This document shows, in pieces, positions 4,601-28,719 of a stretch of DNA of 32,697 nt (its first letter is position 1; every line of letters starts with the position of its first letter). The position numbers and the translations under genes are program-made. Under the pieces are notes generated by a model, which saw only the letters and a list, made by a program, of their open reading frames with translations, ran no database searches and was not told the DNA's origin. Source of the DNA: Clostridia bacterium (GTDB lineage: Bacteria; Bacillota; Clostridia; Oscillospirales; CAG-272); NCBI GenBank assembly GCA_017935225.1, contig JAGBIA010000041.1, forward strand, positions 1 to 32,697, read 5' to 3'.

Positions 4601-4626
4601 AAGTACAACCTTAAGAATAAAGCTTT

Positions 4627-4738
4627 CTTTGTCCTTTTGCCTGAGAGATTTACGTGTTCACGCTTGCCCCTTCGGCCCTCGCATACGCGAGTGTCTCCAA
4701 AGTTCCGTAGGCGTTCAGTCGATTGCTCTTCTGAACGT
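4627..4738 (-). promoter_or_regulatory. Glycine riboswitch, single aptamer
   Basis: Read on the minus strand, the RNA shows the conserved glycine-aptamer blocks CTTTGGAGA, then GGCCGAAGGGGCAA and finally CTCTCAGGCAAAAGGACAAAG, closing a P1 of CTTTG with CAAAG (4698-4702 with 4627-4631). Only one aptamer is present. A short hairpin (CTGAACG 4712-4718 with CGTTCAG 4731-4737) precedes it and may be the 'ghost' remnant described for single-aptamer glycine switches. Downstream come a terminator and then a glycine/alanine symporter gene. Transporter-linked single aptamers of this kind are generally thought to switch expression off when glycine is plentiful; the sign is inferred here. Confidence 0.9.
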
Positions 4739-14040: not shown

Positions 14041-14222
14041 GCGAATGCGAACCGGATTCGGTGCGCTCCCAAAAAGAGAAATATAAAAATTCTCTCAGAT
14101 ATTTCTCCCGACCATCGAGGTCGGGAGAAATATACCCGGAATTTCGCGCCGCTCGCGGTGCGAATGTTGCGAACCGGATCCCGTGCGCTTTGCGCACGGG
14201 GCACGGTTCACTTCGTGCGTAG
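14041..14222. repeat. Palindrome-rich intergenic block with direct repeats
   Basis: A perfect 15-bp inverted repeat (14099-14113 with 14119-14133) stands at the centre. Around it a GCGAACCGGAT-x-GTGCGCT block occurs twice in direct orientation (about 14046 and about 14169). Further small hairpins are GTGCGC/GCGCAC and CGCACGAAGTG-type. I see no gene on either strand in 13897-14265. Confidence 0.5.
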
Positions 14223-14228
14223 CACATC

Positions 14229-14266
14229 AAAAAAAGCAGGACACCTATTGGTGTCCTGCTTTTTTT
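14229..14266. terminator. Terminator after tRNA-Cys
   Basis: A 17-bp perfect stem including the A/T runs (14229-14245 with 14250-14266) with a 4-nt loop starts directly at the tRNA 3' end. It could act in both directions. Confidence 0.85.
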
Positions 14267-14339
14267 GGAGGCGCCACCCGGAATCGAACCGGGGATAGAG
14301 GTGTTGCAGACCTTTGCCTTACCGCTTGGCCATAGCGCC
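14266..14339 (-). tRNA. tRNA-Cys (anticodon GCA)
   Basis: On the minus strand the cloverleaf reads as follows. The acceptor GGCGCTA pairs with TGGCGCC. The D-arm is GCCAAGCGGTAAGGC. The anticodon loop CTGCAAC has GCA at its centre. The T-arm is CCCCGGTTCGATTCCGGG. The discriminator U73 is a cysteine identity element, and CCA (14266-14268) is encoded. The length is 74 nt with CCA. A terminator follows immediately and a consensus promoter lies about 105 bp upstream. Confidence 0.95.
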
Positions 14340-14441: not shown

Positions 14442-14470
14442 ATTATATCACAACTTTTCTTGTTTGTCAA
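14442..14470 (-). promoter_or_regulatory. Consensus promoter of tRNA-Cys
   Basis: Minus-strand TTGACA (14465-14470) and TATAAT (14442-14447) are perfect, with a 17-bp spacer. The roughly 95-nt leader before the tRNA contains small inverted repeats but no second tRNA. Confidence 0.75.
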
Positions 14471-14539
14471 GCCTTTTTTTACTTTTTTTAAAAAAGAATT
14501 TTAAAAAGTTGAAAAATTGAAAAAACTTGATTTTTTTAT

Positions 14540-14568
14540 TGAAAAAGTTGTGATAATATGCTATAATA
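14540..14568 (+). promoter_or_regulatory. Promoter of the mgtE leader transcript
   Basis: TTGAAA (14540-14545) and TATAAT (14563-14568) are 17 bp apart, inside an A/T-rich tract. It is divergent from the tRNA-Cys promoter. The predicted transcript starts near 14575, leaving a leader of about 255 nt. Confidence 0.7.
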
Positions 14569-14574
14569 TGCCTA

Positions 14575-14829
14575 AAGGATCGTGAGATCCTATCCTCTAT
14601 GCCCTCGCATTTGAATAAGTTGGGGGAATATATAAAAATAATTATGGAAGGAGACGAATATGAACGCCGACGGGTGCAATCGAAGTTGCAAGTTAAGTTA
14701 TTCTAATTTAATACCGACGGAAAAGTGCAGTTTCGTCTTCTAAGACCTATTTGTCAGGACATCATCGCGCCTTGCGATAAGCTCGTGACCTCTTTTCCGT
14801 TTTTGTGAGGAAAAGGAGGTCATTTTTTT
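14575..14829 (+). promoter_or_regulatory. mgtE leader RNA: candidate attenuator or riboswitch
   Basis: The leader begins with a perfect hairpin (AGGATC-GTGA-GATCCT, 14577-14592), contains a small ORF at 14660-14743, and ends in a strong stem (14787-14798 with 14809-14821, one bulged G). Seven U (14823-14829) follow the stem and abut the mgtE ATG. The 3' arm of that stem holds AAGGAGG, the mgtE ribosome site, so one hairpin can block both transcription and translation. CGGAAAAG at 14718-14725, inside the small ORF, is exactly complementary to CTTTTCCG at 14792-14799 in the terminator 5' arm, which gives a mutually exclusive antiterminator. I see none of the conserved M-box or Mn (yybP-ykoY) blocks. 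Regulation by Mg2+ is inferred from the gene it controls. Confidence 0.6.
14660..14743 (+). CDS. Candidate 27-aa leader peptide upstream of mgtE
   Basis: ATG at 14660 is preceded by AAGGAG (14648-14653) at ideal spacing, a stronger site than expected by chance. The 27-residue product starts MNADGCNRSC and ends EKCSFVF, with three Cys (6, 10, 23) and one Pro (19), then TAA. It has no signal or membrane segment. Codons 20-22 contain the antiterminator sequence described for the leader, so translation of this ORF could decide which hairpin forms. Protein-level homology cannot be judged at this length. Confidence 0.5.
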   Translation: MNADGCNRSCKLSYSNLIPTEKCSFVF

Positions 14830-16236
14830 ATGGATTTTTCTGAAGACAGAGCTTTTTTGGAGCAGCAGGACAGAGACTATCGCAGAGCCATACTTTCTAT
14901 AATCCGCGGAGACAGCGACGATGAGCTGATGCGCTCCTTGCTCGAGGACTACCACGCAAACGACATCGCTGCGGTGCTTGAGGAGCTCAGCGAGGAGGAG
15001 AACGAGAAGCTTTTGCGCGTGCTTGGCAACGAGGCGATGGCAGAGATCGTTGCATATCTCGACGATGCGTCAGAGATCATCGAGCAGATGGATGCCGACG
15101 ATGCGGCTGAGATCATCGAGCAGATGGACGCCGACGAGGCGCTCGAGGTGCTTGATACGCTTGACGAAGAGACTCGTCAGGAGGTGCTCGAGCTTATTGA
15201 AGACGAGGTCAAGCAGGAGATCGAGCTTATCGACTCCTACGGCGACGACGAGTTCGGTAGCGTGATGAGCACGAATTTCATCGCGATCAGCAGGGAACTG
15301 AACGTCAAGGGCGCGATGCGAAAGCTGATTGCCGAAGCGCCCGAGAACGACAATATTTTTACCATCTTCGTCGTCGACGAGGACGGAGCGTTTTACGGCG
15401 CGATAAATCTCAAGGAGCTTATAGTTGCGCGGAGCGATAAGCCGCTTGAGGATCTTATATACAACACCTTCCCGTACGTGCTTGACAAGGAGAGCATCTC
15501 TGAGAACATCGAGCGCGTGAGGGGATATTCCGAGGAGCTCATACCCGTGCTCTCCGAGGTGGATCGCCGCATTCTCGGTGTTATCACCTCGCACGACGTC
15601 ACCGAGATCGTCGATGCAGAGCTCGGTGAAGATTACGCAAAGCTTGCGGCGCTCGGCTCTGAGGAGAACGTGCGTGAGCCGGTATTCAAGAGTATGAAAA
15701 AGCGAATTCCGTGGCTTATCGCGCTTCTGTTCCTCGGACTTGCGGTTTCGGCGGTCGTCGGACTCTTCGAGGGCGTGGTCAAGGAGCTGCCGCTTATCGT
15801 CAGCTTTCAGTCGCTGATACTCGGAATGGCGGGTAACGTCGGCACACAGTCGCTTGCGGTCACGGTCAGAGCGGTCAGCTCGGACGAGCTCGAGGGCGGA
15901 AAGTTCAGATTTATTTTCAAGGAGACTCGCGTTGCTTTCTTCAACGGTGCGCTGATCGGACTGTTTTCCTTTGTCGTAGTTGGAATTTACCTCTCGGCGA
16001 TAGGCGGACATCCTGCGCCTCTTGCGTTCAGCGCGGCAGCCTGCGTGGGTCTGGCGCTCTGCTTTGCGATGATGATCTCGGGCTTTACGGGCGCGGCGAT
16101 ACCGATGTGCTTCCACAAGCTCGGCATAGATCCCGCAGTAGCATCCGGCCCGCTGATCACGACGGTGAACGATCTCGTCGCGGTCGTCAGCTACTACGGA
16201 CTCGCGTGGATACTGCTTATCAATTTCGGAGTTTAA
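14830..16236 (+). CDS. mgtE: Magnesium transporter/channel MgtE
   Basis: The product is 468 aa with the complete MgtE order. An acidic superhelical N domain (about residues 30-130) includes two near-identical 'IIEQMDAD' repeats. A tandem CBS pair follows (about 140-275; 'SVMSTNFIAISRELNV' and 'YVLDKESISENIERV'). A five-helix transmembrane domain (about 285-468) completes it. Signature pore residues are visible: 'LILGMAGNVGTQSLAVTVRA' and the C-terminal 'DPAVASGPLITTVND', whose Asp residues line the Mg2+ path. The protein forms a dimeric Mg2+-gated channel in the cytoplasmic membrane. The ATG directly follows a U-run, and its ribosome site is inside a terminator hairpin. The gene is single and convergent with the anti-sigma-like gene. 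Confidence 0.95.
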   Translation: MDFSEDRAFLEQQDRDYRRAILSIIRGDSDDELMRSLLEDYHANDIAAVLEELSEEENEKLLRVLGNEAMAEIVAYLDDASEIIEQMDADDAAEIIEQMDADEALEVLDTLDEETRQEVLELIEDEVKQEIELIDSYGDDEFGSVMSTNFIAISRELNVKGAMRKLIAEAPENDNIFTIFVVDEDGAFYGAINLKELIVARSDKPLEDLIYNTFPYVLDKESISENIERVRGYSEELIPVLSEVDRRILGVITSHDVTEIVDAELGEDYAKLAALGSEENVREPVFKSMKKRIPWLIALLFLGLAVSAVVGLFEGVVKELPLIVSFQSLILGMAGNVGTQSLAVTVRAVSSDELEGGKFRFIFKETRVAFFNGALIGLFSFVVVGIYLSAIGGHPAPLAFSAAACVGLALCFAMMISGFTGAAIPMCFHKLGIDPAVASGPLITTVNDLVAVVSYYGLAWILLINFGV

Positions 16237-28439: not shown

Positions 28440-28701
28440 AAAAAAGTCCGTCCCGCAATAATTTTGCCGGGACAGGACTGATATCCTGCGGTGCCACCCT
28501 GCTTGGCGATCTCTCGCCCACTTACGCATACTATTATATGCTGACCTTGTTCACGGTAGATCACACCGTCGCACATACTCCAAAAAATTGTTTCCGATTG
28601 CCCTCGAAGGTCCATTCAACTGTGTTTTCCTGCCGTGATCGCACCACCCACGGCTCTCTGAAAGGAAGGGAGAACAGCTTACTTACTCCTTCTCAACGGT
28701 T
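28440..28701 (-). promoter_or_regulatory. T-box leader, specifier UGG (Trp)
   Basis: Read on the minus strand, stem I starts GAAGGAGTAAGT. The specifier context is TTGAATGGACC with UGG at 28612-28614 followed by the usual A, matching tRNA-Trp. The invariant T-box sequence AGGGTGGCACCGCAG is at 28486-28500. It is followed by a terminator stem (28445-28481; GTCCTGTCCCGGCA with TGCGGGACGGAC) and TTTTTT. Uncharged tRNA-Trp would pair with the antiterminator and allow transcription of the trpB-like gene, which fits its product. Confidence 0.92.
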
Positions 28702-28719
28702 TAAATAAGTTCAAAATAA

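Follow-up and report, generated by a model that had tools for sequence, protein, structure and literature searches.

In Bacillota, the textbook Mg2+ control device is the M-box or ykoK riboswitch (RF00380), which controls mgtE-type genes in members of the phylum other than the one considered here. A second principle, the Mg2+ leader peptide, is already known from mgtL, corL and mgtQ. In the enterobacterial mgtA and corA leaders, efficient translation of a short open reading frame (sORF), mgtL or corL, lowers importer expression; mgtL carries proline and acidic residues, and in Salmonella both act through Rho (PMC11552253). Salmonella mgtQ, upstream of mgtB, is a tiny sORF of eight residues in an intergenic position, with a reported effect on translation (PMC8092293). 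Its acidic codons 2 and 5 (Asp2/Glu5) are described there as favouring pairing of strands 2 and 3 (2:3), which frees the mgtB ribosome-binding site (RBS), as opposed to the 1:2 + 3:4 fold, in which 3:4 hides it. Here, we analyzed the leader of the magnesium transporter gene mgtE in a Clostridia bacterium (assembly GCA_017935225.1, contig JAGBIA010000041.1, positions 1 to 32,697). This whole 32,697-nt stretch, hereafter the window, is contig C80 of an incomplete 2.05-Mb genome from an uncultured genus whose near relatives are gut metagenome bins. The leader contains an sORF that probably serves as a magnesium sensor, widespread but not described to date. The explanation that best fits the comparative evidence, and that we hold to be likely, is an sORF with Mg2+-sensitive early translation that would drive a translation-coupled attenuator.

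All parts of the leader lie on the forward strand. A sigma-70-type promoter (TTGAAA-17 nt-TATAAT, 14539..14567) agrees with the consensus at 11 of 12 positions, a quality at which 1.7 chance matches are expected across the region. The sORF (14660..14743), supported by homologues and a coding signal, has 27 codons, encodes the peptide MNADGCNRSCKLSYSNLIPTEKCSFVF, ends in TAA, follows the Shine-Dalgarno sequence AGGAGA and contains the conserved codon block GAC GGG TGC AAT CGA AGT (D-G-C-N-R-S, 14669..14686). Four strands can be distinguished. Strand 1 is the Shine-Dalgarno region of the sORF (AGGAGACGAA, 14649..14658), able to pair with 14732-14741 (p = 0.020). Strand 2 consists of an antiterminator part (AT; GACGGAAAAG, 14716..14725) within the sORF and a part complementary to the sORF start (TTCGTCTTCT, 14732..14741). 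Strand 3 is the terminator 5' arm (14785..14798), with 14792-14801 as the alternative partner of the AT strand, and strand 4 is the 3' arm (14809..14823), which includes the mgtE Shine-Dalgarno sequence AAGGAGG (14813-14819). The last residue of a seven-U run (14823..14829) adjoins the mgtE ATG at 14830. The gene itself (14830..16236; MgtE_N, CBS and MgtE domains) is assigned by TIGR00400 (254.7 bits, cut-off 232.75).

Folding and coordinates bear out the original prediction, made from the letters of this DNA, that a terminator hairpin with seven U abuts mgtE and holds its ribosome site: the hairpin at 14785-14823 reaches -17.9 kcal/mol (z = -4.40), and none of 200 shuffles was equally stable. 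Our terminator scan did not list it because its 10-nt loop exceeds the scan's loop limit of 8. The proposed competing strands, CGGAAAAG (14718-14725) and CTTTTCCG (14792-14799), are indeed exact complements, and the pairing of the sORF strand with the terminator 5' arm is significant in the window leader (p = 0.003). An Rfam scan found no family at gathering score in this leader, the M-box (RF00380) included, as had been expected; the best sub-threshold match was RF02663 (26.7 bits against a cut-off of 54). In 60 related leader or mgtE loci the same scan returned no riboswitch, the only gathering-level matches being two tRNAs and one 6S RNA, all outside the leaders, and it is for these loci and the window that the absence of the M-box holds.

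Homologous leaders precede mgtE in many Clostridia and share an N-terminal sORF motif, M-D-x-x-D-[SG]-x-G-R-S. Within the genus, the sORF was found in 11 of 12 loci with at least 49% MgtE identity (L008-L019; L015 is degenerate and L019 has a partial gene), with very different 3' halves (starts MNADGC[NS]RSC, MSTDGSCRSS, MNADSNGHGC, MSADSQGQSC and MSSDCNGRGC), and only one of 13 loci with divergent MgtE (24-27% identity) scored (L025). Lachnospiraceae, among others, have related leaders (MDSCDSCGRSRSDG, MDGSDSHERSTG, MSNSDSNGRSRS), and carriers with a species or strain name include Blautia sp. MSJ-9, Hominifimenecus microfluidus and Anaerotignum sp. MSJ-24. Of 154 distinct regions upstream of mgtE, 59 scored above 12 bits with a position weight matrix, and the sORFs of the family span 15-54 codons. 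Several observations suggest that the sORF is read as codons. The start codon sits at a proper Shine-Dalgarno distance, and start-to-motif gaps in the alignment are of three bases, although the motif pattern demands an in-frame motif and in-frame indels were thus partly selected. All 28 frame-blind matches above 15 bits carry ATG or GTG 9 or 12 nt upstream. In 26 hand-chosen pairs of close relatives, codon positions 1, 2 and 3 had 55, 63 and 90 substitutions; read in frame, 63 of 167 were synonymous, compared with 24 of 153 and 31 of 163 in the other two frames. The +1 frame of the motif, which by eye reads WTVVTVxGEV in many leaders, was rejected as a candidate; it closes early and lacks a start.

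Not only the residues but the codons themselves are nearly fixed. Arg9 is CGA in 50 of 50 cases in our codon table, compared with 5.2% of Arg codons in 61 mgtE genes; Ser6 and Ser10 are AGT in 45/47 and 34/38 (10.6% in mgtE genes), and Gly8 is GGG in 28/39 (10.9%). These figures are partly a product of selection, as the first members were found with nucleotide seeds containing CGA and AGT, whereas the motif pattern itself is codon-blind; the table excludes L016, L128, L159 and L197, which do not fit the pattern, and L015 (MSADGWLR, Arg = CGT) was never in the set. A4 took in 47 of 59 leaders. The exporter-type leaders described below, which lie outside the set that defined the motif, have CGA at 14 of 14 Arg codons; leaders of f119 and mgtA have CGA in six and CGG in one. 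Later sORF codons are ordinary (CGA at 10 of 108 Arg). At least one D or E occurs within codons 2-6 in 89/89 leaders, the motif D having been part of the selection, and at least two occur in 65/89. AGU, CGA and GGG are codons typically decoded by wobble, and the codon constraint may reflect decoding or another RNA-level contact. By eye, some leaders, and only some, form a local hairpin around CGAAGU.

Many leaders begin M-D-S-C-D-S-C-G-R-S, as might a classical attenuator that reads the supply of cysteine, serine or arginine. We judge this very unlikely, considering that no Cys position is invariant (the first nine codons of L044, MSTDSNGQES, and of L047, MSTDSQSRL, lack Cys altogether), that codon choice and not merely the residue is fixed, that no run of codons for one amino acid of a regulated pathway was found, and that the downstream genes are Mg2+ transporters. 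In this respect the leader also differs from the ilvB-II attenuator of Corynebacterium, which likewise combines an upstream open reading frame (uORF) with an exclusive antiterminator and terminator, and which reads Ile/Leu/Val codons (PMC11109978; PMC10272879).

The second line of evidence is the RNA switch. A T-tailed hairpin after the stop, with a 5' arm that pairs with a strand inside the sORF, is present in 40 of 67 leaders, and in 31 of the 40 the score is reached by none of 60 shuffles; sORF starts of L083, L086, L089, L094, L101 and L111 were mis-called in this count and put right for the codon analysis, and L101 is among the 31 on its mis-called frame. The antiterminator strands are unrelated in sequence (GACGGAAAAG in the window, GATGGACAAAG in L067, TGGGCGGAT in L080, ACGGTAT in L130, TATAATGATGGATT in L161 and CTGCGGTGGCAGGGG in L199). 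In the window clade, AT pairs with the terminator arm at p < 0.05 in 10 of 12 mgtE leaders, the window included, and without significance in L013 (p = 0.06) and L037 (p = 0.59). A covariation table for this clade has 95% of its cells paired and five of eight pairs changed on both sides, with a score of 0.481 against 0.243 in shuffles (0/500 reach it); the table was hand-picked, L015/L043 and L051 were dropped as no AT strand was seen, and identical rows count once. The CGGAAAAG/CTTTTCCG pair is thus preserved by double changes, and, with no known riboswitch matched either, the wider idea of the original prediction, a cis-acting Mg2+ or translation sensor other than the M-box with a built-in sORF and mutually exclusive hairpins, is supported.

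Three features go beyond that prediction: the conserved N-terminal codon motif, re-use of the sORF on other Mg2+ transport genes, and a helix that closes over the sORF start. In this 1:2 helix, the 3' end of the sORF pairs with its own start region at p < 0.05 in 47 of 89 leaders (21 at p <= 0.01), compared with 2/89 for a control stretch just downstream. The sORF's own 3' end outperforms swapped 3' ends in 76/89, with a mean score of 19.83 versus 14.60. The median distance from the end of a significant 1:2 helix to the last base of the stop codon is 13 nt, and the AUG is covered in 40/48; so placed, the sORF-3' strand of these helices would lie under a terminating ribosome. These shuffle statistics treat related leaders as separate (L008 and L009 are near copies), and the p-values are accordingly not independent. 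Whole-leader duplex energies gave long gapped duplexes, of use for no more than part of the window clade, and were set aside. As judged from sequence, the 1:2, 2:3 and 3:4 strands make up the four-strand layout of a classical attenuator and of Salmonella mgtQ. Terminator-like hairpins near genes are common, and the arrangement could in principle be a plain terminator or RBS hairpin beside a chance ORF, with no regulation; we give this hardly any credence, as it is contradicted by the 2:3 and 1:2 pairings, the covariation, the swapped-3'-end test and the codon constraint.

A stronger competitor is a new Mg2+ riboswitch, with the conserved block as an aptamer closed by 1:2 and the reading frame incidental or secondary. 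The near-invariant nucleotides of the block and the closing 1:2 helix, together with a possible pseudoknot with 2:3, would suit such an element, which we nevertheless find improbable. Pairing of the block with the rest of the leader barely exceeds chance (p < 0.05 in 7 and 8 of 89, where about 4.5 would be expected), and substitutions favour third codon positions; the exporter-type leaders bear on this reading as well.

Some further structures were noted by eye. A small hairpin surrounds the sORF stop codon (e.g., GAGCTGTAATTAAAATACAGTTC) in L012, L014, L128, L044 and other window-clade leaders, in which the antiterminator helix can extend past it. In L067 and L068, an extra hairpin after the terminator spans the T-run (CTGTTTTTGGG/CCCAAAACAG and TGTTTTAGG/CCTAAAACA); the sequences differ and both pair.

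To see which genes carry the sORF, whole genomes were scanned with two models, each about 50 nt long and based on sequence alone: R1, built on 27 leaders, and R2, whose training included many mgtE leaders that it later re-found. Among 394 genomes of the order, R1 matched 14 at E <= 0.05: mgtE in the window, G009 and G395, corA in G401 and G473, CNNM in G447, and, on reading, no leader in the remaining eight. Three R1 matches lie within about 1 kb at G494:C50 48781-49789 (L140, L153, L155), with no leader, and L140 is repetitive coding sequence. Twenty of 391 class genomes had an R1 match at E <= 0.05, and all ten matches at E <= 0.0022 precede mgtE, nine of them outside the training set (L157 repeats training locus L076). 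At E <= 0.02, R2 gave 22 matches in 150 genomes of one family (19 mgtE, many in training, one Mg2+ P-type ATPase and two unrelated) and 16 in 299 genomes of the phylum, the window included (five mgtE, two corA, one CNNM and, by reading, eight others), where about six chance matches are expected and three of the eight others are the same glycine-rich small protein. Within the genus, at E <= 0.5, R2 gave 41 matches: nine mgtE, 16 CNNM (15 assigned by Pfam, L307 by its start alone), three AI-2E and 13 without a leader; 14 of 14 matches at E <= 0.0048 precede mgtE, CNNM or AI-2E genes. Related sORFs also stand before corA in 10/10 genomes of one family (MDGDTGS, MDGDAGS, MEGDAGS, MEGDPGS, MEADPS) and before mgtA in three loci (MDGCPRSQ, MDGNPRSR, MDSNPRNP). 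The corA leaders L149 and L151, from other families of the order, have sORFs close to the window motif (MTADPYGRSC, MSADGNGRWC). By sequence comparison, then, the sORF is associated with Mg2+ transport genes of four unrelated families: mgtE, corA, mgtA and CNNM.

This association bears on whether the sORF might instead sense the general state of translation (ribosome number, antibiotics or charged tRNA), with Mg2+ transport regulated since ribosomes hold much of the cell's Mg2+. Such a sensor would explain the conservation of the rare codons CGA, AGU and GGG, and its output would depend on ribosome position by design. We regard it as unlikely, given that the genes found repeatedly downstream encode Mg2+ transporters, from four unrelated families, rather than being ribosome or resistance genes, AI-2E transporters being the only other recurrent class seen.

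The CNNM and AI-2E genes carry leaders of a second layout, which we call exporter-type. Sixteen loci of the genus have the same sORF start (MDNCDSDGNCRST, MDGDSTGRST, MDSDGNCRST) ahead of a CNNM-family gene; L293 (G000:C21), one of these, belongs to the genome from which the window comes. In three genomes of the genus, AI-2E-family transporter (PF01594) genes follow such a start (L277, L278, L279); with L218 and L144 from other families, 21 exporter-type leaders were available. In 21/21, the terminator arm begins between -26 and +11 nt relative to the last base of the sORF stop; the typical terminator is GCATAACC...GGCTATGC-TTTTTT, and the 5' arm contains the stop codon in L293, L297 and L299. 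A gapless terminator rule missed most CNNM terminators, which have one A-C mismatch, and was replaced by folding. No exporter-type leader (0/21) has an antiterminator strand at p < 0.05, and of 16 such leaders tested for 1:2, L218 alone gave a borderline value (p = 0.05; 0.03 in the other test). They keep the start codon and N-terminal motif without 1:2 or AT, which leaves the sORF start as the only shared part and speaks against the riboswitch. In contrast, the arm of the 12 window-clade mgtE leaders begins +24 to +46 nt after the stop, and 10/12 have an antiterminator; arm positions in both groups were named after reading these leaders, and the polarity claim rests on this comparison.

A ribosome at the sORF stop should thus prevent termination ahead of CNNM genes but allow it ahead of mgtE, and, with this opposite wiring, sORF translation should switch importers off and exporters on. 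CNNM-type proteins are described as Mg2+ exporters or exporter regulators in work on MpfA (PMC6711546), and CorC and MgpA as induced by high Mg2+ in another report (PMC12421838). A single sensor that governs both the import and the export side of Mg2+ balance would need such a pair of layouts, which suggests that the sORF is translated well when Mg2+ is sufficient. The original prediction held that the direction of control is undecidable from sequence; the opposite CNNM wiring makes one direction much likelier. It is also possible that the AI-2E-family proteins behind exporter-type leaders are unrecognised Mg2+ or cation exporters.

Returning to the attenuator driven by Mg2+-sensitive sORF translation, the evidence is comparative throughout, and the mechanism we favour would run as follows. 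During normal translation to the stop, the ribosome would cover strand 2 (the AT together with the stretch that complements the sORF start); 3:4 would then form, transcription would terminate and the mgtE ribosome site would be hidden (OFF). If ribosomes stalled on, or fell off, the first sORF codons, strand 2 would be left free, 2:3 would form and mgtE would be made (ON). The failing stretch would be the acidic residues at codons 2-5 followed by the GAY-RGU-N3-GGG-CGA-AGU block, and the 1:2 fold-back of the sORF 3' end onto its own start would be expected to prevent late initiation. Most probably the signal is a shortage of Mg2+ that affects ribosome stability, as has been reported for enterobacterial mgtL, corL and mgtQ, so that we infer the ON state at low Mg2+.

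Several observations weigh against this mechanism. By the rule used, 27 of 67 leaders have no switch, and 42 of 89 have no 1:2 helix at p < 0.05; some of the leaders without a detected helix may regulate through Rho or by way of the ribosome site. In 12 leaders that do not belong to the window clade, the AT begins 31-41 nt past the start codon, so that a ribosome pausing at codons 9-10 would overlap part of it and failure would have to come earlier or be drop-off. The window sORF has a single early acidic residue (D4), and acidic residues do not explain the near-invariant AGU/CGA/GGG codons. The mgtE leader L042 (about 1400-1500) keeps the CGGAAAGG antiterminator/terminator pair with no recognisable sORF. 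Only 3 of the 13 mgtA loci examined have the sORF, and no clear terminator was seen by eye in the corA leaders. Finally, folding of 88 importer leaders found a terminator in 67, of which 36 lie within +15 nt, and by terminator position the importer leaders as a whole were not separable from the exporter type (p = 0.17); a clean separation failed because T-rich stretches inside sORFs were picked up.

Compared with the enterobacterial systems, the clostridial leader shares an sORF ahead of a Mg2+ transport gene, early acidic codons and, in importer-type leaders (about half by strict rules), mutually exclusive 1:2/3:4 and 2:3 pairing. Its likeness to mgtQ extends to a tiny sORF with acidic codons and a 3:4 helix that hides the transporter RBS; unlike mgtQ, it lies in a 5' leader, has a strict codon motif, often an intrinsic terminator, and belongs to Bacillota. 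Intrinsic hairpins with T-runs occur in many of the clostridial leaders, compared with the Rho-dependent output of mgtL and corL in Salmonella. The MgtL peptide begins MEPDPTP, and the corA sORFs of one Bacillota family that start MEGDPGS resemble it. By analogy, the sORF appears to work like mgtQ and mgtL; common descent is not claimed. We found no counterpart of the inverted re-use on CNNM genes, and no description of the family, its codon signature, its use in Bacillota or the inverted re-use was found in the literature of the PubMed Central open subset. The mgtE motif SRC-65-1 is likewise a predicted element upstream of mgtE; it has 32 representatives, only in Thioalkalivibrio, and is a structured riboswitch candidate rather than a uORF (PMC11109978).

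Elsewhere in the window, a tRNA-Cys gene (anticodon GCA, 14266-14339, reverse strand) is divergent from the leader and shared with the relatives L002 and L003; a sigma-70 promoter match that accompanies it (14442-14470, reverse strand) agrees at 12/12 positions. Between this gene and one for a leucine-rich-repeat surface protein lies a GC-rich patch (14060-14235) with several inverted repeats, noted by eye and similar in L003. Rfam also placed a glycine riboswitch (4619-4710) and a T-box leader (28465-28705) on the reverse strand.

As a more tentative extension, which we consider somewhat less likely to be right than wrong, the sORF could be a plug-in Mg2+ sensor across Bacillota, an acidic start plus wobble codons (AGU, GGG, CGA, AGU) coupled to antiterminators on importers, mgtE above all, and to terminators on exporters (CNNM), such that its translation would turn import off and export on. 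Sensing might then involve wobble decoding by a Mg2+-poor ribosome and not only acidic drop-off, and AI-2E-type proteins would be unrecognised Mg2+ exporters. If true, our reading would explain Mg2+ control in Clostridia whose scanned mgtE loci show no M-box, and would supply a second system, built separately, for testing how early translation is disturbed by low Mg2+. The signature MDxxD[SG]xGRS with CGA-AGU would then find new Mg2+ genes, for example those of AI-2E family proteins.
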